Shown piece after piece: positions 11,684 to 46,308 of a DNA stretch of 50,649 bases. Each line of letters opens with the position of its first letter. The first letter of the stretch is position 1. The notes beneath the pieces are model-generated. The model saw only the letters and a program-made list of their open reading frames with translations. It had not been told where the DNA came from and made no database searches. The stretch is taken from positions 1 through 50,649 of the forward strand of contig JAQXUH010000050.1 in assembly GCA_029219885.1 (NCBI GenBank). The letters run 5' to 3'. The translations under genes and the position numbers were made by a program. This DNA comes from Eubacteriales bacterium (GTDB taxonomy: Bacteria; Bacillota; Clostridia; Oscillospirales; Acutalibacteraceae).

Positions 11684-12740
11684 TGGCAACATACTCCTTA
11701 ATCTCTTTTAACAGAATGTCAATTTCCTCATCTGTGCCGATTGAAATTCTCACATAATTTTCAATTCTCGGCAGAGAGAAATACCTGATGAAAACCTTTT
11801 TCGTCTTAAGATACTCAAACATATCCTTCATCGAAAGGCTGTCGTGAGTGGTGAAAATGAAATTAGCCGACGAGTCAAGAACGCTGAAGCCTAAAGCCCT
11901 GAGCTCTTTTGTTGCTCTCTCTCTTGTTTCAATAATTTTATTGCAGGTGGCTTTGAAATATTCGTCATCCCTTACGCTGGCAGCTCCTGCGGCAATTGAA
12001 ACGGAGTCAACAGTATATGAATTGTAGGAATTTTTAACTGCCTCCATAACAGAAATAAGCTCTTCACTTCCGATTGCAAAGCCTATTCTAAGTCCTGCAA
12101 GAGAACGTGATTTTGAAAACGTACCTGTAACAAGAAGATTTGCGTACTTTTCAATAAGGGGTACAGAGGATACTCCGCCGAAATCTACATATGCCTCATC
12201 AATAATAACAATGCTGTCCTTGTTGTATTCCATCAGCTTTTCAACAAATTCTCTGCCTTCGCCGATAGATGTGGGAGCGTTAGGGTTTGGAATTACAACG
12301 CCGCCGTTTTCCTCTTTGTAGTCCTCAGGGTTAATCCTGAAATTTTCGTCAACAGGATATGTTTTATATTTTATACCGAAAAGGTCGCACCAAACAGGAT
12401 AAAAGCTGTATGTCAAATCAGGATAGGCAATAGGCTTTTCGCTGTTGAAAAATGACTGAAATGCAATTGCTAAAACATCATCAGAGCCGTTTCCTACAAA
12501 TACATTTTTAATATCTACATTATAGTATTCAGCCAATGCCTCTTTAAGCTCTGTGGAGTTAGCGTTAGGATAAAATCTCAGCCTGTCAGCGTCAAAGCTT
12601 TTTATCGCCTCAATTGCCTTTGGTGACGGCGGATAGGGGTTTTCGTTAGCGTTGAGCTTAACTATATTTTTATCCTTGCTCTGTTCACCGGGAACGTAAG
12701 GCGTTATCTTTCTTAAATTGTTTTTCCATAAATTTTCCAT
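11670..12740 (-). CDS. hisC: Histidinol-phosphate aminotransferase
   Basis: A 356-residue class I/II PLP aminotransferase. Features: KLNANENPYPPSPKAIEAI at the N terminus (typical of HisC), FVGNGSDDVLAIAFQSF, VIPNPNAPTS, IIDEAYVDFGG, and the PLP-lysine segment GTFSKSRSLAGLRIGFAIG. It transfers the amino group of glutamate to imidazole-acetol phosphate in histidine biosynthesis. Related HisC-like proteins can act on aromatic keto acids, so the substrate is likely but not certain, especially as no other his gene is adjacent. ATG 12740 has an AGAGG site 7-8 bases upstream. Confidence 0.87.
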   Translation of the reverse strand: MENLWKNNLRKITPYVPGEQSKDKNIVKLNANENPYPPSPKAIEAIKSFDADRLRFYPNANSTELKEALAEYYNVDIKNVFVGNGSDDVLAIAFQSFFNSEKPIAYPDLTYSFYPVWCDLFGIKYKTYPVDENFRINPEDYKEENGGVVIPNPNAPTSIGEGREFVEKLMEYNKDSIVIIDEAYVDFGGVSSVPLIEKYANLLVTGTFSKSRSLAGLRIGFAIGSEELISVMEAVKNSYNSYTVDSVSIAAGAASVRDDEYFKATCNKIIETRERATKELRALGFSVLDSSANFIFTTHDSLSMKDMFEYLKTKKVFIRYFSLPRIENYVRISIGTDEEIDILLKEIKEYVANGNK

Positions 12741-12760
12741 AATCTGTACCTCTTTTGGAT

Positions 12761-12789
12761 ATTTTAGCACAATAAAGCGTCAATAGCAA
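12761..12789 (-). promoter_or_regulatory. Promoter of hisC
   Basis: On the minus strand, TTGCTA (12784-12789) and TAAAAT (12761-12766) are spaced 17 bp apart and lie about 20 bp from the hisC start codon. Confidence 0.55.
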
Positions 12790-12832
12790 CTGTTAAAATT
12801 ATCGTATTAAAATAATGGTTAATAATACTTAA

Positions 12833-12860
12833 TTGACATTTCGTTTTTGTGTGGTATAAT
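12833..12860 (+). promoter_or_regulatory. Promoter of the zinc-uptake-type operon
   Basis: TTGACA (12833-12838) and TATAAT (12855-12860) are spaced 16 bp apart. TCGTTT (12841-12846) and AAACGA (12870-12875) flank the -10 box as an imperfectly placed inverted repeat. The spacing is too wide for a classical Zur box, so an operator role is uncertain. Confidence 0.82.
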
Positions 12861-12890
12861 GACCTTAATAAACGAAAGGATGTGAGAAAA

Positions 12891-13187
12891 ATGAGCAAAA
12901 AAAGACGACTTATTACTGCCGTTATTACTGCTATGTATATTTTTATACTTCTTTTCTCCGTGTCCTTTATCGCAACAGAGGCAAATCATAACTGCCATGT
13001 TAAAGACAGCTGTCCTATTTGTTATCAAATCAACGTTTGTAACAATGTAGTAAAAAATCTTACTACCATTTCGGCTGCTGCCTTTATTATGCTGTTGGCT
13101 GCCTTTTCCGTTTTGCTCATTCTTGGTGCAGTTAAGCAGTTTAATCATTCTACGCTTGTTGCACTTAAGGTTAAGCTTTCAAGTTAA
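12891..13187 (+). CDS. Small Cys/His membrane protein, first gene of the zinc-uptake-type operon
   Basis: A 98-residue protein with two hydrophobic segments (about 8-28 and 58-82). Between them, probably outside the membrane, lies a cysteine/histidine-rich segment: NHNCHVKDSCPICYQINVC, with CxxC at 42-45. It is not recognised as a named family. The motif suggests metal or redox binding. AGGATG-type spacing and the GAAAGGA site upstream support ATG 12891. It directly follows the operon promoter and precedes the metal-binding lipoprotein, so a role in metal sensing, storage or delivery is plausible but unproven. Confidence 0.72.
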   Translation: MSKKRRLITAVITAMYIFILLFSVSFIATEANHNCHVKDSCPICYQINVCNNVVKNLTTISAAAFIMLLAAFSVLLILGAVKQFNHSTLVALKVKLSS

Positions 13188-37260: not shown

Positions 37261-37276
37261 ATTCAATACCAAATCG

Positions 37277-37314
37277 GCAGAGGTTGTCTATTTTTGACAA
37301 TCTCTGCTTTTTTT
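37277..37314 (+). terminator. Intrinsic terminator after the EF-G-like gene
   Basis: GCAGAGGTTGTC and GACAATCTCTGC form a 12-position stem with one G-T pair (37277-37307), followed by seven T residues. Confidence 0.93.
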
Positions 37315-37354
37315 GTAATATTTGATAAAAAATTAACAAAATTTAACATATTTG

Positions 37355-37383
37355 TTGATTTGTATAAATTTATTGTGTATAAT
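37355..37383 (+). promoter_or_regulatory. Promoter of the cooC-HgdB-HgdC-ACS-like operon
   Basis: TTGATT (37355-37360) and TATAAT (37378-37383) are spaced 17 bp apart. The predicted leader is only about 10 nt, ending in AAGGTG just before ATG 37401. Confidence 0.8.
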
Positions 37384-37400: not shown

Positions 37401-38162
37401 ATGAGTAATTCAACAATTATAGCTACAGCAGGTAAAGGCGGAGTGGGAAAAACATCAATTTCCGCCACAATCGTTCGCTGCCTGGCAGAAAAATATCCTG
37501 ACAAAAAAATACTTGCTATTGACGCAGACCCTGCCGTCGGTCTTTCAACAGCCTTGGGAATAGACGTTAAAATTACTATTGACGATATCCGCAAGGAAAT
37601 TATTTCTTCCGTAGATGAGGGAGATACCAGAGGTGCTATTGAGCTTTTGAACGAGGCAAAATATCGTATCTTTGACGCTCTTGTTGAAACCAACGGCTTT
37701 TCCTTTATTGCAGTCGGCAGACCTGAAACCGCAGGCTGTTACTGCAAAATCAATTCTTATCTCAAAGAGGTAATTTCAATTCTGTCAAATGAGTTTGATT
37801 ACGTTGTTATCGACGGCGAGGCAGGAATTGAGCAGATAAACAGGCGTGTTATGGAAAAGGTTACGCACCTTCTTCTGATTACCGACCCGAGCAAAAAAGG
37901 CTGCCGGGTTATCAGCACAATAAAGAGTGTTGCCGACGAGCTTGTTATGTATGAAAAAATCGGCGTTATCGTCAACAGAATGAATGATGAGTCCTTGAAG
38001 GAATATATCAATATTGACGGTATGGAGGTTTTGAGCTATATTCCTGATGACAAAAATCTTTGTATGTTTGACATTCAAGGGGAAAATATTTTTAATCTTC
38101 CTTCTAATTCCAATGTTGTTATCGGCGTTAAGAATGCACTTGAAAAAATTGAGGTACTGTAA
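37401..38162 (+). CDS. CooC-like metal-cluster maturation ATPase (MinD/Mrp superfamily)
   Basis: A 253-residue P-loop ATPase. The deviant Walker A is GKGGVGKT at 11-18, with IDADPA at 40-45 as switch I. The CxC motif (Cys113 and Cys115, RPETAGCYCKIN) is the mark of CooC/AcsF-type ATPases, which dimerise through it and help insert nickel into CO dehydrogenase or acetyl-CoA synthase. No CO dehydrogenase is nearby; instead the next genes encode 2-hydroxyacyl-CoA dehydratase-like proteins and an acetyl-CoA synthase-like fragment. The client may be one of those. It is the first gene of a six-gene operon and overlaps the next gene by 1 bp. Confidence 0.85.
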   Translation: MSNSTIIATAGKGGVGKTSISATIVRCLAEKYPDKKILAIDADPAVGLSTALGIDVKITIDDIRKEIISSVDEGDTRGAIELLNEAKYRIFDALVETNGFSFIAVGRPETAGCYCKINSYLKEVISILSNEFDYVVIDGEAGIEQINRRVMEKVTHLLLITDPSKKGCRVISTIKSVADELVMYEKIGVIVNRMNDESLKEYINIDGMEVLSYIPDDKNLCMFDIQGENIFNLPSNSNVVIGVKNALEKIEVL

Positions 38163-39358
38163 TGAAAGATTTAAAGCATCTTATTTATTTTGAAAATTTG
38201 CTCCAGGAGGCAAATAATGAGCTTGTTAAGCAGGCGATAGGCGAGGGTAAAAAGGCAATTGCCTATACCTGTTATCATATTCCCGAAGTGCTGCTTAATT
38301 TGGATAACTGCTTTTCAGTCCGTCTCAGAGCACCGAGAACAGGCTCAATGGATATTGCTACATATTATTTGAGCTCCTATCTCTGCGGTTATTCCAAGGC
38401 GTTGCTTGAAAGAGGAATTGAGGGCGGATATAACTTTCTTTCTGCTCTTATCGGCTCTGAATCCTGCTCGGAAATGAACAGAACTTATGAGCATTTTACA
38501 CTTCTTAACTTAGTTGAGAATGATAAATTCTTTGTGTCTATCGCAGATATTCCTTTTAAAATTGAGCCTCACACAATCAAGCATTACTCAAAGCAAATGC
38601 AGATAAAGGTTCTTGACAAGCTGCACGAGGTTTACGGCGTGGATATCAGCGAGGCGTCTTTAAGAAAAGCTGTTGAGGAGCATAACGAAATCTGCCGTCT
38701 TATTACTGAAATCGGCGAGTACAGGAAAGAGGAAAACCCGAGAATTACAGGCTACGAATTTCACGTGCTGAATCTTGTAACCTACTGTTGCCCTAAATAT
38801 CTTATTCTCGATAAGCTCAGAGAAACTGCCGAGGAGCTTAAAACGAGAGTTCCTGACGAAAAGAAGAATTACAGAGCAAAGGTAGTAGTTGTAGGCTCGG
38901 AAATGGATGACCCTGATTTTACAAAGCTTATTGAGGAGTCAGGTGCTCTTGTAGTTGCAGACCGTTACTGCTTCGGCTCTCTTCCTGGCAGAGAAGAAAT
39001 TATCCTTAACGACACTGATGATGTTTTGGAGCAGATTGTTCTTCACTATATGAAAACCTGTCAATGCCCAAGATATATGAGTAAGGATAAGGTGCAGGGA
39101 CGTAAGGAATATGTCCGTCAGCTTGTTAATGATTACCACGCAGACGGCGTAATATACGAGCAGATTAAGTTCTGCGAATATTGGGGATATGAGAGAGCAC
39201 TTGCATCTCACATTATCACAAACGAGTATGGCATTCCGTCTGTTACTGTTGACAGACAGTATACAGCAAATGCTTCAGGTCAGCTCAGAACCAGAGTTCA
39301 GGCTTTTGTTGAAAGTCTTGAAATTAAAAATATTCAAAAGGCAAAGGGGGCGAAATAA
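38162..39358 (+). CDS. 2-hydroxyacyl-CoA dehydratase D-component (HgdB)-family iron-sulfur protein, first copy
   Basis: A 398-residue protein of the HgdB/FldB/double-cubane family. An N-terminal KKAIAYTCYHIPEVLL segment and Cys at 37, 75 and 102 match the first cluster-binding region. The later VADRYCFGSLPG (Cys270), KTCQCPRY (Cys300 and Cys302) and EQIKFCEYWGYE (Cys338) match the second. The family holds [4Fe-4S] or double-cubane [8Fe-9S] clusters activated by an HgdC ATPase, which is encoded downstream. It overlaps the CooC gene by 1 bp and abuts the next family member. The substrate is unknown; dehydration of a 2-hydroxyacyl-CoA is only one option. Confidence 0.85.
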   Translation: MKDLKHLIYFENLLQEANNELVKQAIGEGKKAIAYTCYHIPEVLLNLDNCFSVRLRAPRTGSMDIATYYLSSYLCGYSKALLERGIEGGYNFLSALIGSESCSEMNRTYEHFTLLNLVENDKFFVSIADIPFKIEPHTIKHYSKQMQIKVLDKLHEVYGVDISEASLRKAVEEHNEICRLITEIGEYRKEENPRITGYEFHVLNLVTYCCPKYLILDKLRETAEELKTRVPDEKKNYRAKVVVVGSEMDDPDFTKLIEESGALVVADRYCFGSLPGREEIILNDTDDVLEQIVLHYMKTCQCPRYMSKDKVQGRKEYVRQLVNDYHADGVIYEQIKFCEYWGYERALASHIITNEYGIPSVTVDRQYTANASGQLRTRVQAFVESLEIKNIQKAKGAK

Positions 39359-40900
39359 ATGGCAAATCAACCAAAAAACCTTGGTAATCTTCATCAGGAT
39401 AAAACAGGTATCTTAAAGCACAGAGAATGGCGTGGCTTTAAGGATACAATGTACGATTATTACCGCTGGCTTATTACGTGGAAGGATATGATTAAAATGG
39501 TGCTTAAGGCACCTGTATCTACCGTAAAAGGCTTGTGGAATTATCGCTGGATGGCAAGCTATCTTTCTGCTCCTGCGTGGATTGACAGGCACGTTGAGGG
39601 ACTTAGAGGTACTCACCTCAGAATTGCTCATCTTCATTTTGATGCCATTATTAAGCACACCTGCGATATGATTCATATGCTTTTCAAGCACGACAAGCAT
39701 TTTCATCATAACGACAAATTTTCTGACAAGGTTGTTTGTATGGACGAATTGTTTTCCTTTGAGCTTATGGCAGGCTTTCCAAATTTGTACGGCGTGCCGG
39801 TGCAGACAATTCCGATTTTCCTTTCATCAATGGTTGACCAACAGATTACGCCTCCATACCTTGATATAACAGAAAGCTATGGCGTTCCTGCCGATGTCTG
39901 CCCACTTCCGTCGTCGGAAGCAGGCATTGCAATTAACGATGATTATCCGATGTTCGGCAAGTGCTTCTTATCCTGCAATATGCCTTGCGACGGCTCAACA
40001 ATGAACTCTTCATATATTGACAGACGTTTCAATTTACCATCTCACGTTGTAAACGTACCTCTGCGATATACCGAAGAGGAGGTGCAGGAGTACGCTGTTG
40101 ATGAGGTTAAGTCCTGCATTAAATTTATTGAAGAGCAGACAGGAGAAAAGTTTGATTGGGACGCTTATTTCTCCGCAATGAAAACCTACAATAAACAGCT
40201 TGAATACGAACTTCAGAAGTGGGATATCAACAAAACTGATTATCCACAGATGACCGGTGCAACATTCTGGCTTTACAGACTTTTCTATTTCCACCTTTCA
40301 GGCGGATTTGACAAACGCTTTCTCAAGGCTGATAAAAAGGTCAATAAGCTTATGATGAAAGGCTTTGAGAAGAAAGAAAAGGTTTCAAAAGAAATGCGTC
40401 ACAGAGCAGTTGTTTGGTCCTGTCCTGCAAACTACTACACAAGCCTTGCAAACTGGCTTGAAAACTGTTGGGGAATTAATGTTGTAATGGATATGGAAAC
40501 GATGATTTCCTACATTATGTACGATACAGAGGATAAGGATAAGTCTCTTGCCGTTTATGCAAAAACTCTCCAGCGTACCACTATGAGAAAGCATACAAAG
40601 GGCGGTTATCAAAATGTTCTTGACGAGCTTTGGAGAGTGTGCGAGGAGTTCAATGCCGATACAGTAATTATGTATAATCAGATTTCCTGCAAGGGTATGG
40701 ACGGTCTCAGCGGTATATTTGACGACCAGGCCAGAGAAAGAAATATCAACTTCATTTGGGTTGACCAGGACCTTATGGACCCAAGAACAATTTCAAGACG
40801 GGATATGCGTGAGCAGATTAACAAGTATATGACAACTGTTTTGCAGGAAACTCCCGTTGACCCTACTCTCGTTGATTTCGACGATACAATGGCTTGGTAA
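39359..40900 (+). CDS. 2-hydroxyacyl-CoA dehydratase D-component (HgdB)-family protein, second, longer copy
   Basis: A 513-residue partner of the preceding protein, with about 110 extra residues at the N terminus. Conserved-looking pieces are VCPLPSSEAGIA, a cysteine-rich FGKCFLSCNMPCDGSTM (three Cys), VVWSCPANYYTSLANWLENCWG and DTVIMYNQISCKGMDG. They correspond to the cluster-binding segments of the family. HgdA/HgdB-type enzymes are heterodimers of two such related subunits, so genes 38162 and 39359 probably form one complex. The start codon follows the previous stop directly (AAATAA-ATGG, no gap), with GGGG upstream. I could not recognise a subfamily with known substrate. Confidence 0.82.
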   Translation: MANQPKNLGNLHQDKTGILKHREWRGFKDTMYDYYRWLITWKDMIKMVLKAPVSTVKGLWNYRWMASYLSAPAWIDRHVEGLRGTHLRIAHLHFDAIIKHTCDMIHMLFKHDKHFHHNDKFSDKVVCMDELFSFELMAGFPNLYGVPVQTIPIFLSSMVDQQITPPYLDITESYGVPADVCPLPSSEAGIAINDDYPMFGKCFLSCNMPCDGSTMNSSYIDRRFNLPSHVVNVPLRYTEEEVQEYAVDEVKSCIKFIEEQTGEKFDWDAYFSAMKTYNKQLEYELQKWDINKTDYPQMTGATFWLYRLFYFHLSGGFDKRFLKADKKVNKLMMKGFEKKEKVSKEMRHRAVVWSCPANYYTSLANWLENCWGINVVMDMETMISYIMYDTEDKDKSLAVYAKTLQRTTMRKHTKGGYQNVLDELWRVCEEFNADTVIMYNQISCKGMDGLSGIFDDQARERNINFIWVDQDLMDPRTISRRDMREQINKYMTTVLQETPVDPTLVDFDDTMAW

Positions 40901-40921
40901 CAGCAGAAAGGTATATTTAGT

Positions 40922-41713
40922 ATGAAATATTTTGGCGGATGTGATGTAGGCTCAACCTACGCAAAATGTGTTATTCTTGATGAAAACGGAAAGATTGTTT
41001 CCGACGCTACTGTAAGAAGTAAAATCAATCCGGTACAGAGTGCCGAGCTTGCTCTTAATGAGGCGATTGGAAAGGTTGATAATCTTAATTCTGCTCAGAA
41101 GCTCAGCTACCTTATCGGTACAGGCTACGGCAGAAATAAGGTGCCTTTTGCTGATGAAAACATATCAGAGATTAGCTGCCACGCAATGGGCGTTCACGTA
41201 ACAAATCCAAGCGTTAAGGCTATTATTGATATCGGCGGTCAGGACGTTAAGGGTATTGCAATTGATACTGACGGTACTGTTAAAAACTTTGCAATGAACG
41301 ATAAGTGTGCAGCAGGTACAGGAAGATTTTTCGAGGCTATGGCAAACGCCTTTGAAATGACACTTCCTGAATTCTGCAAGCTTTCTCTTCAGGCAAAAAA
41401 TACAATTCCTATTACTGCACAATGTACTGTTTTTGCCGAGTCAGAGGTTATTTCTCTTGTTGGTGAGGGTAAGCCTATGGACGAAATCGCAGCAGGTATT
41501 CAGCTTGCTGTAGCAAAGAGATGCTTTGTTATGGCTAAAAAAGCAGGTGCAACAGACAGTATTACTCTTACAGGCGGATGTGCTAAAAACGAGGGACTTA
41601 AAAAGGCAATCGAGCACGTGCTGAAAATTAAGGTTGTTGACCTTGATATCGACCCTCAGCTTATGGGTGCTCTCGGTGCTGCCGAATATGCAAGACAGAA
41701 AGGAATGGCATAA
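40922..41713 (+). CDS. 2-hydroxyacyl-CoA dehydratase activator ATPase (HgdC family)
   Basis: A 263-residue ASKHA-fold ATPase. GCDVGSTYAKCVILD (phosphate-1, 6-20), IDIGGQDVKGI (103-112), and the two cluster cysteines Cys129 (NDKCAAGTGRFFE) and Cys168 (TAQCTVFAESEV) match the family fully. The homodimer holds one [4Fe-4S] cluster between the subunits and uses ATP to inject a low-potential electron into its partner. Here the partner must be the HgdB-type pair encoded just upstream. It follows by 21 bp, with an AAAGG site 7-8 bases before ATG 40922. Confidence 0.92.
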   Translation: MKYFGGCDVGSTYAKCVILDENGKIVSDATVRSKINPVQSAELALNEAIGKVDNLNSAQKLSYLIGTGYGRNKVPFADENISEISCHAMGVHVTNPSVKAIIDIGGQDVKGIAIDTDGTVKNFAMNDKCAAGTGRFFEAMANAFEMTLPEFCKLSLQAKNTIPITAQCTVFAESEVISLVGEGKPMDEIAAGIQLAVAKRCFVMAKKAGATDSITLTGGCAKNEGLKKAIEHVLKIKVVDLDIDPQLMGALGAAEYARQKGMA

Positions 41714-41872
41714 ATGTTAAAGGCTTTATTAATTATTCTTATTGTCATTGCAGTTTTGTTTATTCTGACCTTTACGATTTATTGGTTTAATCTTGATATG
41801 AAGCTTGTAAGGAAGATTTACGACCTTTTGGGAAAGCACTATGATAATCTTGAAAAGGACAGAAAGCTTTAA
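41714..41872 (+). CDS. 52-residue single-helix membrane protein in the HgdB/ACS-like operon
   Basis: An open frame of 52 codons (41714-41872). Residues 4-25 are a hydrophobic helix (LLIILIVIAVLFILTFTIYW), and the C-terminal half is charged and helical (MKLVRKIYDLLGKHYDNLEK). It begins at the base after the activator's stop, with GAAAGGA about 9 bases upstream, and its TAA shares the A of the next gene's ATG. This stop/start coupling on both sides supports a real gene. It may anchor the complex to the membrane. No homologue was recognised. Confidence 0.72.
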   Translation: MLKALLIILIVIAVLFILTFTIYWFNLDMKLVRKIYDLLGKHYDNLEKDRKL

Positions 41873-42570
41873 TGATACTTTATGATAAGCTGATAAATGA
41901 AATTTTATCTCTTTTTCCAAGTGACGCAAAGGTATTTCCTTATGAAAAATCTTCTTTAGGACTTGCAGATAAAAATGCAATACTTTTTGCTAAAGACACG
42001 GCTTACGAGCTTGGCGGAAGTCAGAAGTCCTGCGTCAGCACAACTGTTGTGTCAAGCGATATGACCTTTGACAACAGCGTTTATCTTTACGGTAAGGATA
42101 TACCGCAGATTAAGGAAGATTGTCTCTTTTGCAAAATCGTACTTCTTGAGATTGAGGATATTGACGAGGAAACTGCATTTGATAAAATCAAGGAGCTTGA
42201 ATTTGTACGATACAGCACCTGTCCCGAGGGCTTTATGACAAGGGCGTCGGCACTTAGTATGCGTGAGCAGATAAGAGTCAGCAAAAAGGCTGTTAAGGAT
42301 AAAGTGTCTTTTAAAGATTACGGAAATCTGCTTATTGAAAAGTATCTCAGTTTTCCTATTGTCAAAAGTGTAAGGATAATTTTTGCTACGGAATTTGATG
42401 ATTTTGATAAGCTATATCTTCTTTGTGATAAGGTGAAGAGTACAACCTCTGCACTTAATCACATTTTGGATAATGTTCTTTTTGACTGCTCGTCCTGCAA
42501 TCTTAAGGAAATCTGCGACGAAGTAGAGGGAATGAAAGAGCTTCATATGAAAAAGGCAAAAGAAAGATAA
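41872..42570 (+). CDS. Protein resembling the middle domain of acetyl-CoA synthase, without the A-cluster domain
   Basis: A 232-residue cytoplasmic protein. The stretch EGFMTRASALSMREQIRVSKKAVKDKVSFKDYGNLLIEKYLSFPIVKSVRIIFATEF (about 119-174) looks like the AcsB/CdhC middle domain: a RVSK motif, then a K-x2-G-x2-L-x3 segment, then a VxIxF/Y-type strand. The pieces YLYGKDIPQIKE (71-82) and YELGGS (45-50) also fit. It has no C-terminal A-cluster (Ni-Ni-[4Fe-4S]) domain. Instead it ends with a Cys motif CSSCNLKEIC (Cys206, Cys209, Cys215) that could bind a metal or cluster, and four more Cys at 54, 84, 87 and 117. Its start overlaps the preceding stop by 1 bp. The resemblance was judged by eye. 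Confidence 0.6.
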   Translation: MILYDKLINEILSLFPSDAKVFPYEKSSLGLADKNAILFAKDTAYELGGSQKSCVSTTVVSSDMTFDNSVYLYGKDIPQIKEDCLFCKIVLLEIEDIDEETAFDKIKELEFVRYSTCPEGFMTRASALSMREQIRVSKKAVKDKVSFKDYGNLLIEKYLSFPIVKSVRIIFATEFDDFDKLYLLCDKVKSTTSALNHILDNVLFDCSSCNLKEICDEVEGMKELHMKKAKER

Positions 42571-42576
42571 TATATA

Positions 42577-42620
42577 AAAAACCGTCATTAGAGACAAATT
42601 CTAATGGCGGTTTTCCTTTT
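42577..42620. terminator. Bidirectional terminator after the ACS-like gene
   Basis: AAAACCGTCATTAG (42577-42590) pairs with CTAATGGCGGTTTT (42601-42614), with one G-T/mismatch position. It lies between converging operons, giving T runs on both strands. Confidence 0.88.
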
Positions 42621-43518: not shown

Positions 43519-44009
43519 TTGTTAAAATCCTCCTTCAAAAGCTCCCGAAGCATTTTTCTGCCTCTTGAAAGTTGTTTTCTGACAGCAATGGGGCTTGTGC
43601 TTGTGATTTGTGCAATTTTTGATACTGAAAGATTTTCGTAATAAAATAGTACAATAACCGTTCTGTAGGGCTGATTTAAACTGTTAACTGCATCACGAAG
43701 TGCTAATTTTGTTGTTATGTCCTTTTCGCCGTTTTCGTAAATTTCCTCAGGCGGTTGGTCAGTAGGTATGATTTTTGAGTTTTGGCGTATCATTTCAACT
43801 GCCGTGTTGTGAACAATTCGCAGTATCCAAGGCTTAAAAGCACTTTCGCTTTTCAGCGAGTCACGGCTTTTATAGGCTCTGTAAATCGACTCGCTGATTA
43901 CTTCTTCAGCGTCTGTTTCGTTTTTCACAACGGAGAGAGCTACACGGTACATAGATTTTTCATAAAGCCGTATGTTCTCGCAAAACGACTCTTTATCTGT
44001 CAAAATCAT
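43515..44009 (-). CDS. ECF-type sigma factor (SigV-like)
   Basis: A 164-residue sigma-70 family protein of the ECF group. Region 2 spans about 12-75 (MYRVALSVVKNETDAEEVISESIYRAYK..., then FKPWILRIVHNTAVEMIRQ), and region 4 is ALRDAVNSLNQPYRTVIVLFYYENLSVSKIAQITSTSPIAVRKQLSRGRKMLRELL. The ATG (44009) overlaps the stop of the SGNH gene in an ATGA arrangement. That ATG sits only 1 base after AGGAGG, so a TTG at 44003 with 7-base spacing may be the true start. It is coupled to the RsiV-like anti-sigma and lies downstream of an O-acetyltransferase pair. Confidence 0.88.
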   Translation of the reverse strand: MILTDKESFCENIRLYEKSMYRVALSVVKNETDAEEVISESIYRAYKSRDSLKSESAFKPWILRIVHNTAVEMIRQNSKIIPTDQPPEEIYENGEKDITTKLALRDAVNSLNQPYRTVIVLFYYENLSVSKIAQITSTSPIAVRKQLSRGRKMLRELLKEDFNN

Positions 44010-44788
44010 CCCTCCTCTGAAGATGAGGCACTTTGTGAAATTATCCACTTACCCCACTTGTTATAGTATTTGGCATAAAGATGCGTGCCGTCTTCCGACT
44101 TGTCAGCAGATAAATTTCCGTTTGCGTCGTCGAATAATTTGTTTGCATCAATATAAAATGTAGTCTTGCCGTCAGCAAGCTTTGACAGCTCTGCGTTAAG
44201 TCTGTCAATTGCAGTATTGTTTACAACCTTGTCGCTGTGGGAACGGCTTTGAGTTACGTGCAGATTACCCTGAATAAAAATCAAAGCGTCAGGCTGGTTT
44301 TCTTTTACAAAATCAATAAGCTCGCTATACTTATCTACAATGCTTTGAAGCTCATATCCCACTTCATTTATGCCAAGCATTATATATATCTTACCATACT
44401 TTTTACCGCCAAGCAATTGTGCAAGCGTTACCTTTCCCACATTAGGCACGGAAACGGTTTTATCCTGAATATTATACACACTCATTCCAACGTTGCAGAA
44501 GAAATCGGCATTTTCAATTTCGGCATATTCCATAAGTCCTACAGTTCTTGAATCGCCGATAAACAGCATATCGTCGCTGACGGGAGCCTTTGCTGTTTCT
44601 TTCGTTTTAGCAGTCGTTTCGCTTTTTTCTGTGCTTTCATCGTATAACAAGACCGTACTGCTTTTTGCAGAATTTTCCGTCGCTGTAGTGCCTATATCAA
44701 CCTTTGACCTGCCGCAGGACATAAAAAGCACAACTGCCACAATGATTAAAATTAATGATAAAAGTGTAATTAAATTTGATTTTTTCAT
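44006..44788 (-). CDS. SGNH/GDSL hydrolase-fold protein, probable partner of the MBOAT acyltransferase
   Basis: A 260-residue exported or membrane-anchored protein. An N-terminal helix (5-23) ends with LFMSC (Cys25, atypical lipobox), followed by a Ser/Thr/Lys-rich linker (to about 70). Block I is LFIGDSRTVGL with Ser80, block III is LGINEVG, and block V is EDGTHL with Asp233 and His236. This is the layout of PatB/AlgJ-like proteins, which complete transfer of acetyl groups from an MBOAT channel to peptidoglycan or another glycan. Its end overlaps the sigma factor gene start. It begins 12 bp after the MBOAT gene. Confidence 0.83.
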   Translation of the reverse strand: MKKSNLITLLSLILIIVAVVLFMSCGRSKVDIGTTATENSAKSSTVLLYDESTEKSETTAKTKETAKAPVSDDMLFIGDSRTVGLMEYAEIENADFFCNVGMSVYNIQDKTVSVPNVGKVTLAQLLGGKKYGKIYIMLGINEVGYELQSIVDKYSELIDFVKENQPDALIFIQGNLHVTQSRSHSDKVVNNTAIDRLNAELSKLADGKTTFYIDANKLFDDANGNLSADKSEDGTHLYAKYYNKWGKWIISQSASSSEEG

Positions 44789-44800
44789 TTTATTTACCTC

Positions 44801-46192
44801 TCAAAATCTGAAATACAAAAACGGGTCATCAAAACCTCGGTACATACAGTAGACGCTGCCTGCAAAGATTACTGCAAGAATAATTCCTTTTATAGCGGGA
44901 CTTTTCAGCTTTTTTAAAATTCTGTAAGGAATTTTTGTGGAGAATAATACTCCTGCTATGAGAAAAGGGAAGTACAGCTTTAAATATTTTAAAAAGTCGT
45001 ACTTGAATACCGACCATACTCCTTCACCGAAAAAGGGAAACAGCCGAGAGAAAAATACTCCGAGGTTTCCTAAATCGTCAATGGCGAAAATTGCCCAAGT
45101 CAGCGGAATCAGGATAATCATATAAACGTGTCCTGCAATGGGATATCTGTTAAAAAATTTTCCTGTCAGGAATTTTTCCGTCACCAAGATGACGAAAAGC
45201 ACTAAGCCCCAAAGGACAAAATTATATCCTGCTCCGTGCCATATTCCTGTAAGCAGCCACACGACGAGTAGATTTCTTATAGTTGCAATACTGCCGTTTC
45301 TGTTTCCCCCAAGGGGAATGTAGACATATTCCTTAAACCAGCTGCCAAGGGTGATGTGCCACCGACGCCAAAATTCCGTCATTGTAAGGCTTGTGTACGG
45401 ATGGTCAAAATTCTTCGGCAGCTTAAAGCCCATCATTTTGCCAAGCCCAAAAGCCATCAGCGAGTAGCCGAAAAAGTCAAAATAAATTTGAAATGAGTAT
45501 GCAAAAATCGCCATCCACGCAAGTGGAGTTGATATGCTTTCAAAGCCGATAGCACAGGTCTGTGACCAAAGCTTTCCAAGAGGGTTGGCAAGCAGTACTT
45601 TAAGCCCCAAGCCGAAAACGAAAATTCCCAAACCCTTCAGAGCAGATTTTACTGTAATATTCCGCCAACGCAGTTCCTGCTTTACCTGACTGTATTTGAC
45701 AATAGGGCCTGCAATCAGCTGTTCGAACATTGAAATATAAACTGCATAGCGTACAAGAGATTTTTCCGCCTTGATACTGCCTTTGTAAACATCGGCAATA
45801 TAAGAGATTCCCTGAAAGGTGTAAAAGGAAATTCCCACAGGAAGTGCAATATTAAGCGTTAAATCAACGCACCCTATACTTCCAATTTCACCTGCTATAA
45901 AGTTCCAATATTTAAACAGACACAGGCACAGCAGATGAAAAATTATCCCAAGGGACAGAAAAAGCTTTTTGCGTTTTTCGTGCTTTTCAATCAGCAATCC
46001 CACCTCAAAATCAGCAAGCATACTTACTATCAGCAAAATTATATGCTCCGGGTGATTGATAGAGCCCACTATGTAAAAGCAAAGACTGCCTGCAAGCAAA
46101 ACTGCGTTTTTAAACCTGTAGGGCACAGCGTAGTAGCAGCCGAAAAATATTGGCATAAATATAAAAATAAATTGTAAACTGCTGAAAACCAT
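44801..46192 (-). CDS. MBOAT-family membrane-bound O-acyltransferase (PatA/AlgI type)
   Basis: A 463-residue membrane protein with about 10-12 helices. MVFSSLQFIFIFMPIFFGCYY is the typical AlgI/DltB/PatA start. ALPVGISFYTFQGISYIADVYKG and DFFGYSLMAFGLGKMMGFKLPKNFDHPY are strongly conserved family blocks. The catalytic histidine is in LLTGIWHGAGYNFVLWG. It moves an acetyl group across the membrane. The ATG 46192 is used because the alignment of family starts fits there; the frame is open further upstream. A terminator at 46285-46308 separates it from the GPH gene, so it starts its own operon with the SGNH, sigma and anti-sigma genes. The acceptor (peptidoglycan, capsule or teichoic acid) is not known. 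Confidence 0.9.
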   Translation of the reverse strand: MVFSSLQFIFIFMPIFFGCYYAVPYRFKNAVLLAGSLCFYIVGSINHPEHIILLIVSMLADFEVGLLIEKHEKRKKLFLSLGIIFHLLCLCLFKYWNFIAGEIGSIGCVDLTLNIALPVGISFYTFQGISYIADVYKGSIKAEKSLVRYAVYISMFEQLIAGPIVKYSQVKQELRWRNITVKSALKGLGIFVFGLGLKVLLANPLGKLWSQTCAIGFESISTPLAWMAIFAYSFQIYFDFFGYSLMAFGLGKMMGFKLPKNFDHPYTSLTMTEFWRRWHITLGSWFKEYVYIPLGGNRNGSIATIRNLLVVWLLTGIWHGAGYNFVLWGLVLFVILVTEKFLTGKFFNRYPIAGHVYMIILIPLTWAIFAIDDLGNLGVFFSRLFPFFGEGVWSVFKYDFLKYLKLYFPFLIAGVLFSTKIPYRILKKLKSPAIKGIILAVIFAGSVYCMYRGFDDPFLYFRF

Positions 46193-46280
46193 ACTCCACC
46201 GCCTTTTGCCGTTCTGACCTAAAGACGAAACAACAACCCAAAAGGTGACAAAAAAATTGAAATTTTTAAAATTCTGCAAC

Positions 46281-46308
46281 AAAAAAGAGCCGTTATATAA
46301 CGACTCTT
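46281..46308 (-). terminator. Intrinsic terminator downstream of the second GPH symporter gene
   Basis: On the minus strand AAGAGTCGTTAT and ATAACGGCTCTT form a stem with one G-T position (46285-46308), followed by TTTTTT. Confidence 0.9.

Follow-up and report, generated by a model that had tools for sequence, protein, structure and literature searches.

A conserved clostridial operon that may couple a new lineage of the benzoyl-CoA reductase/2-hydroxyacyl-CoA dehydratase superfamily to CooC-type and acetyl-CoA synthase-derived partners

What kind of enzyme is specified when two subunits of the benzoyl-CoA reductase (BCR)/2-hydroxyacyl-CoA dehydratase (HAD) superfamily and their activase share an operon with a CooC-type ATPase, a membrane microprotein and a protein derived from acetyl-CoA synthase (ACS)? 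The question is raised by six genes, here denoted A to F, at positions 37401-42570 of contig JAQXUH010000050.1 (assembly GCA_029219885.1) of an Eubacteriales bacterium of the family Acutalibacteraceae; "the window" below means the whole stretch analysed (50,649 nucleotides, forward strand). All six open reading frames (ORFs) lie on the plus strand according to the ORF list and a check of the window sequence, and their coordinates, overlaps and families, as given in an initial annotation of this DNA, were all confirmed (ORFs, Pfam, NCBIfam). The reading that we favor, with a probability of about 55%, is that the genes encode an ATP-driven, two-subunit reductase of the class I BCR/HAD superfamily accompanied by a dedicated metal-maturation pair, A and F. 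The catalytic core represents a new lineage within a known kind of enzyme, and its association with A, E and F is new.

The core would be formed by the products of B, C and D. B (38162..39358; 398 amino acids, aa) and C (39359..40900; 513 aa), initially described as HgdB-type proteins, do belong to the HGD-D family in Pfam (317.6 bits for B; 157.6 bits over residues 162-489 for C), but the closest architecture is that of class I benzoyl-CoA reductase, not that of HgdB. According to the available part of PMC11971306, the [8Fe-9S] double cubane of BzdN is held by Cys36, Cys73, Cys100, Cys263, Cys293 and Cys327, and the catalytic [4Fe-4S] cluster of BzdO by Cys95, Cys128 and Cys380. All six BzdN ligands align with cysteines of B (C37, C75, C102, C270, C302 and C338) in 29 of 29 diverse B sequences; across 59 loci, C37 is retained in 58 and each of the other five in all 59. 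By alignment, two of these six cysteines are absent from HadC and three from MbdN. The nearest solved chain to B is BzdN (E 3.4e-28), yet B forms a deep branch of its own. C contains three cysteines, C181, C210 and C444, each conserved in 59 of 59 loci, that align with the BzdO ligands in a weak pairwise comparison (E 0.2) and would form the catalytic [4Fe-4S] site; a profile alignment of C with BzdO (E 3e-4) moves the middle cysteine by one residue. The tetrapeptide CDGS is invariant in the C alignment. C exceeds the BzdO chain by about 65 residues and has 86 extra residues before the first ligand, an N-terminal region for which no Pfam or NCBIfam match above cut-off was found. The partner of B thus holds three of the six double-cubane ligands, which argues for a B/C heterodimer rather than a homodimer.

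D (40922..41713; 263 aa) is a predicted ATP-dependent activase of the HgdC/BadF type (TIGR00241, 212.9 bits against a cut-off of 125.4). The cysteines of its NDKCAAGTG and AQCTVFAES motifs, which by analogy with HgdC we take to be cluster ligands, are conserved in 59 and 58 of 59 loci, respectively. None of the more specific models reaches its cut-off: B scores 103.5 bits against 453.8 for bzdN and D 166.9 against 380.2 for bzdQ, C scores 26.8 against 750 for HadB and B 90.9 against 700 for HadC, and in the double_cubane model NF040772 (cut-off 350 bits) B and C score 148 and 53.9. By these profile comparisons, B and C are a new lineage of the BCR/HAD superfamily and not an ordinary dehydratase pair, and the suggestion made at the outset that the locus specifies a multi-cluster redox enzyme is supported by the predicted ligand sets of B and C together with activase D. 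The source genome (1.89 Mb, 86% complete) contains no HGD-D match beyond the operon.

The gene set recurs widely. A scan of GTDB contigs yielded 192 stretches with a relative of F (tblastn, E up to 1e-3), the best 80 of which were fetched and labelled with hidden Markov models built from sequences of the genus (L and G numbers below denote loci and genomes). Sixty of the GTDB loci include 4.8 kb or more upstream of F, and 54 of these have the order A-B-C-D-F, the exceptions being L063, L078, L083, L087, L089 and L113, and a counterpart of E is present in most; the neighbourhood search proposed in the initial annotation thus found the genes together. The median gaps across loci are 2 bp for A/B, -4 bp for B/C and 16 bp for C/D, and mean identity over 59 loci is 84% for D, 68% for A, 66% for B and 57% for C. 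Fourteen GTDB loci show no C, and all five that were followed (L087, L113, L089, L078 and L046, the last merely a cut contig) have C on another contig. Some of the 80 loci are the same contigs as genus loci (e.g. L042 and L023, both on contigs of 61369 bases), so the 99 F sequences compared below are not independent. Going by the titles of the records, the hosts are mostly metagenome-assembled Clostridia of gut and rumen, with Vallitalea, Clostridium algidicarnis, Emergencia and Mogibacterium among those named; Clostridium algidicarnis DSM 15099 and Emergencia sp. 1XD21-10 are cultured.

At the level of the genus, F is present in 18 and C in 17 of 36 relatives, and 16 of the 19 genomes with either gene have both. 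The three exceptions are contig ends: one contig begins within D (G018), one stops within E (G016), and in the third genome (G026, 83% complete) A lies 723 bases from the start of the contig, and B-E may fall in an assembly gap. Among the 18 genus loci, 11 have A-B-C-D-E-F in order, three are cut by contig ends, two have B-C-D-E followed by A-F, and two have A-F alone (that of G026, and that of G028, in which B-C-D-E is on another contig). Of 391 sampled genomes of the class, seven encode F-type proteins, and the same seven and no others encode C-type proteins at E below 1e-180 (P about 2e-13, with relatedness ignored); in 14 more, the C profile finds matches with E values of 2.5e-14 or weaker. 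A-type proteins (E below 1e-110) are found in six of the seven; G066 is the exception, its contig being cut within C. The F profile also caught ACS-type frames in ten class genomes, with G240 belonging to both groups; this profile is no census of ACS, as a full ACS profile later found six more genomes. Within a phylum sample of 398 genomes, F-type proteins were detected only in the source genome and in G603, which lies outside the class. The predicted operon is therefore a real, widely conserved gene set, and one that is common to many anaerobic gut and sediment bacteria. One copy of the Clostridia type is on a contig recorded as Bacteroidaceae (L075, JAKSIR010000094.1), possibly through a binning error.

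F (41872..42570; 232 aa) is a homologue of the middle domain of ACS. It matches CdhC (PF03598) in Pfam with 33.8 bits against a cut-off of 24; among the 17 PDB matches of the F profile up to E 10, 15 are ACS (best E 8.7e-8; the other two, E 0.037 and 2.5), and hhalign against the ACS middle domain gives a probability of 96.8% (E 2.2e-10). Residues 34-183 of F correspond to residues 308-458 of a genomic ACS (locus L128) and 337-486 of 1oao_C, with the RVSK...G..F...G motif in common, and the match ends before the A-cluster domain of ACS. Beyond this region F has three cysteines, C206, C209 and C215, conserved in 98, 99 and 99 of 99 sequences, and stops 17 residues past the third, with no fourth cysteine column and no CGC; the superposition of the three on the first three of the four A-cluster cysteines was obtained with forced settings and a trimmed ACS and is of low confidence. 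Because F-type frames have 234-245 aa in the class and phylum samples and ACS-type frames 397 aa or more, F is not a fragment of a broken ACS gene. The possibility that F is a complete ACS was rejected as well: the A-cluster (nickel-site) domain is absent, and without it F cannot be a working ACS. No CdhC match besides F was found in the source genome. The ACS relation claimed initially is thus borne out by the PDB profile search and hhalign, limited to the middle domain and three cysteines and without the nickel domain.

A (37401..38162; 253 aa) is a CooC-type P-loop ATPase with a deviant Walker A motif (GKGGVGKT). It matches CbiA/ParA in Pfam (58.8 bits), and its best PDB chain is CooC, 3kje (E 6.8e-18). 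C113 and C115 of A, kept in 58 and 59 of 59 loci, align with Cys112 and Cys114 of CooC, which form a Zn/Ni site at the dimer interface (PMC6006190, available part). Against a profile of A from the genus, the operon proteins score at least 339 bits, the A-like proteins of two distant loci, L177 and L211 (see below), 232 and 184, and 30 other CooC-like proteins 42-167. Of these 30, 19 come from ACS loci and 11 from stretches in which no ACS was seen and CODH (carbon monoxide dehydrogenase) was not looked for. In a tree of 63 proteins, 31 operon A proteins together with those of L177 and L211 make up one clade (support 99/93), apart from the other 30; in retests with every third operon row (11 of 31) and one very long row left out, support was 97/92 without L177 and 100/100 without L211. 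The A proteins linked to HGD-D genes are, by this tree, a CooC clade of their own.

The CooC type and the putative metal-binding CxC thus agree with the initial annotation; maturation of CODH/ACS, the role attached to them there, is not borne out in this setting. None of the 37 genus genomes analysed, the source genome included and several of them incomplete, gave a CODH (Prismane/PF03063) match, and A is accordingly not read as a CODH/ACS maturase here. With F the only CdhC match in the source genome, the candidate role of A in serving either enzyme was rejected for the genus.

E (41714..41872; 52 aa) is a predicted single-pass membrane microprotein (Kyte-Doolittle hydropathy 3.27 over 19 aa) with the motif NxD(M/Q)K and no family match reaching cut-off. 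Under a strict rule, 50 of 59 loci have a counterpart of E in the interval from D to F, with the motif mostly NLDMK. Four of the nine failures still have NLD or NID together with (M/Q)K, and two of the others (L094 and L100) show a possible tail of a wrongly started E copy. This conservation across loci led us to reject the idea that E is a chance ORF. At two loci labelled Lachnospiraceae, a DUF3829 protein is encoded between D and E/F (L076 8580-9767 and L088 8604-9806), and at a third with the same label (L078 4420-5499) one precedes E/F, with D not seen; of these, the L076 copy was scanned with Pfam.

The flanks of the operon name no pathway. At the 80 GTDB loci there are no constant flanking genes and none that would identify an acyl-CoA pathway, so a fixed neighbourhood naming the pathway was rejected. 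The initial annotation had said that a constant association with a known acyl-CoA pathway would count against its own view; no such association was seen at these loci. The commonest flanking genes besides A-F encode a transporter family of the major facilitator type (13 of 80 loci, on both strands; one copy scanned). At 10 of 80 loci, an old-yellow-enzyme-type protein (Oxidored_FMN plus Pyr_redox_2) is encoded no more than 600 bp from the operon: upstream on the same strand at L067, L068, L097 and L120, divergently at L070, L080, L086 and L091, and downstream at L065 and L112 (the copies of L065, L068 and L070, and one in L141 outside the 80, were Pfam-scanned; the other seven were assigned by BLAST cluster). 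L065, L070 and L091 each have a second B-C pair, with the C of L091 in two reading frames, and L112 ends with a second B; further B-C pairs occur at L083, L106 and L115. At each of these last three, of which two are recorded as Mogibacterium, an Hsp90-type (HtpG) gene stands between the other B-C pair and A (L083 6299-8278, L106 2789-4705, L115 2367-4277; the L106 copy Pfam-scanned, the other two identified through BLAST clusters). Two genomes that have the operon contain additional B-C pairs elsewhere (L178 7526-10272 in G369; L179 7000-9942 in G279), for which the 16 kb fetched show no activase; one activase may serve several B/C pairs there. In G369, a 972-aa FeS/flavin oxidoreductase (Fer4_20, Pyr_redox_2) is encoded 20 bp after F (L140 9233-12151), a possible electron donor.

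Two distant architectures are more telling with respect to the substrate. In G603, two genes that resemble acyl-CoA dehydrogenase genes (the second weakly) are followed at locus L177 by one for a 594-aa protein and then by B, C, a pair of activase genes, F and A. G240 has, in addition to the six-gene operon, a second locus, L211, with thiolase-, acyl-CoA ligase- and CoA-transferase-like genes, two activases (one of them above the BzdQ cut-off), B, C and an A-like protein. B keeps all six double-cubane cysteines at both loci. The A-type ATPase thus goes with predicted double-cubane B/C pairs in three architectures and F with two, and L177 and L211 point to acyl-CoA chemistry. A and F also adjoin each other where the rest of the set is apart or reordered (L034, L038, L039, L087 and L113), as they do at L177. 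The 594-aa protein directly before B at L177 (14187-15971, minus strand) has no Pfam or NCBIfam match at E 1e-5, and L211 may be disrupted, as an IS1380-type transposase lies between its activase genes and B (11729-13074).

From these observations we infer the following scheme, in which the path of electrons is modelled on the published BzdNO scheme. D would hydrolyse ATP and pass electrons of very low potential to B, B would store them in an [8Fe-9S] double cubane, and from there they would move to an open [4Fe-4S] site of C, at which the substrate would be reduced. E, perhaps together with the N-terminal region of C, would anchor the complex, which is probably tethered to the membrane. A and F are read as a pair given that they stay together, that the metal site of A is that of a nickel chaperone and that the domain of F comes from an enzyme whose loci carry CooC-type genes. 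They would act as a dedicated chaperone and adaptor that load or remodel a metal site of the enzyme, located either in B/C or in F, with F docking A on the client in a way that resembles the encounter expected between ACS and a CooC-type maturase of its own. As to the substrate, our guess is that it is most likely a CoA thioester or some other compound that is unsaturated and rather hydrophobic. The acyl-CoA genes of L177 and L211 and the old-yellow-enzyme-type genes at 10 of 80 loci make such a compound, unproven as it is, more likely than a small inorganic molecule; the initial annotation had suggested that a small molecule might be reduced at very low potential. Benzoyl-CoA is not implied, there being no histidine in C at the position of BzdO His131.

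Several observations weigh against this scheme. BzdNO with its double cubane was made in Escherichia coli from a bzdNO plasmid (PMC11971306, available part) and, by analogy, helpers like A and F are not needed for a double cubane as such. The counterpart of the active-site His131 of BzdO is Ser213 of C in the pairwise alignment or Gly212 in the profile alignment. F evolves fast (42% mean identity, compared with 84% for D); at L063, which has B, C, E and F, neither A nor D was detected, and L211 has an A-like gene with no F detected at the locus. Support for the A clade drops to 92/80 when the most distant CooC group is removed, and the branches of L177 and L211 are long in this tree. The membrane role is based on a single predicted helix in E.

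That BzdNO can be made from its own two genes suggests that A and F should act beyond the standard clusters, and this leads to a bolder and distinctly tentative version of the scheme. In it, the enzyme would belong to the BCR/HAD superfamily and contain a heterometal: a CooC clade that has parted from CODH, working through an adaptor carved out of ACS, would place a metal, most likely nickel, on the three-cysteine site of F or on the open cluster of C, and the product would be a membrane-held Ni-Fe-S reductase.

Other explanations have to be weighed against a reductase with a maturation pair. The locus could encode an ordinary 2-hydroxyacyl-CoA dehydratase of amino-acid fermentation, in which D starts the radical, B and C eliminate water, and A, E and F are passengers. 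The shared superfamily, the matches of B and C to HAD equivalogs and the anaerobic clostridial hosts would fit this explanation, but those scores are far under the cut-offs of 700 and 750, HadC lacks two of the six ligands of B, and throughout the class A, E and F are conserved alongside B-D. HAD operons include a gene for a CoA-transferase or a dehydrogenase, and neither is found within this operon, nor is a transporter gene, just as the initial annotation had claimed; we consider an ordinary dehydratase quite unlikely. A kinship with the double-cubane cluster protein (DCCP), in which the [8Fe-9S] cluster would itself be the site of small-molecule reduction, is also unlikely, even though B has all six DCCP ligands, DCCP is the best single-sequence PDB match of C (E 4.9e-6), the operon contains no substrate genes, and DCCP reduces acetylene, azide and hydrazine (PMC11971306, available part). 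The same source describes DCCP as a homodimer whose subunits each contain a double cubane, whereas C has three proximal ligands, as in BzdNO; moreover, the NF040772 score of B is well short of its cut-off and the nearer PDB relative of B is BzdN.

Finally, the center of activity might lie in F, which would be a catalytic mini-ACS of a carbonyl-type enzyme of C1 or acyl transfer, its nickel-iron-sulfur site loaded by A and its electrons supplied by B, C and D. The homology of F to the ACS middle domain, the possibility of aligning its three cysteines with the first three of the A-cluster, the CooC type of A and the tendency of A and F to travel as a pair speak for this idea. It is nevertheless highly improbable: the fourth A-cluster cysteine and the CGC nickel ligands are absent from F, the cysteine alignment is of low confidence and easily forced, CODH was not found in the 37 genus genomes, and F is the least and D the most conserved protein of the set, unlike what would be expected of a catalytic F.

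The six genes are predicted to be co-transcribed. A and B, and likewise E and F, overlap by 1 bp, B/C and D/E abut, and C and D are separated by 21 bp. A terminator-like stem (13 bp, with a T-tail; 37276..37308, plus strand) lies between an EF-G-like gene and the operon, several promoter-like hexamer pairs, matched by consensus and with none singled out, lie upstream of A between 37294 and 37383, with the stretch 37322..37383 (plus strand) marked as the promoter-like region, and a second terminator-like stem (16 bp, with a T-rich tail; 42578..42614, plus strand) follows F on its 3′ side. Such matches are common by chance (promoter-like, 24 in the window against 12.6 in shuffles; terminator-like, 6 against 4.1), and we therefore infer a single transcript from the spacing and from the order conserved across the class. 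Elsewhere in the window (44006-46282, minus strand), a secreted-looking 260-aa protein and a 493-aa multi-pass protein next to it may represent an SGNH/MBOAT-like surface acylation pair.

As far as the literature search went, no recognisable description of this operon was found; in the available part of PMC4148979, cooC is named in a figure of ACS genes and not together with bzd. Within the superfamily, the operon represents a separate lineage that is widespread in Clostridia and has a CooC-type ATPase, an ACS-derived protein and a membrane microprotein as partners. If A and F do insert a metal, CooC proteins serve clients outside CODH/ACS, and a type of active site new to the superfamily has arisen. 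The presence of the gene set in Clostridium algidicarnis DSM 15099 and Emergencia sp. 1XD21-10 makes it directly testable.

Among known systems, BzdNOPQ resembles the operon in having two unlike HGD-D subunits, one with six ligands (BzdN, like B) and one with three (BzdO, like C), and an ATP-driven activase. It differs in that Bzd has two activase genes and the operon one, that C has no counterpart of His131, that the bzd models score far under their cut-offs, and that A, E and F are extra. DCCP and its reductase DCCP-R share with the operon the six [8Fe-9S] ligands, found in B, and the single HgdC-type activase; DCCP is a homodimer, whereas here the two HGD-D genes are unlike, C having three of the ligands, and three further genes are present. 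HadABC and HgdABC have the superfamily, the activase and a three-cysteine catalytic subunit in common with it, but HadC has Pro and Ala where B has C37 and C270. The CooC maturases of CODH/ACS operons are similar to A in the deviant Walker A motif and the CxC, whereas A belongs with its HGD-linked relatives in a separate clade and in genomes where CODH was not found. F shares with ACS (AcsB/CdhC) the middle domain but has neither the CODH-binding nor the A-cluster domain, and its C-x2-C-x5-C differs from the C-x2-C-x8-C-x9-C plus CGC of ACS. A precedent for nickel chaperones beside a reductase is the putative isoprene reductase (isr) operon of Acetobacterium wieringae, where, according to the available part of PMC10134865, HypA/HypB nickel chaperone genes accompany a reductase in a genome that has no structural genes for a NiFe hydrogenase; that reductase is a FAD/FeS oxidoreductase, not described there as HGD-D, and its chaperones are HypA/B, in contrast to the CooC type of the present operon.

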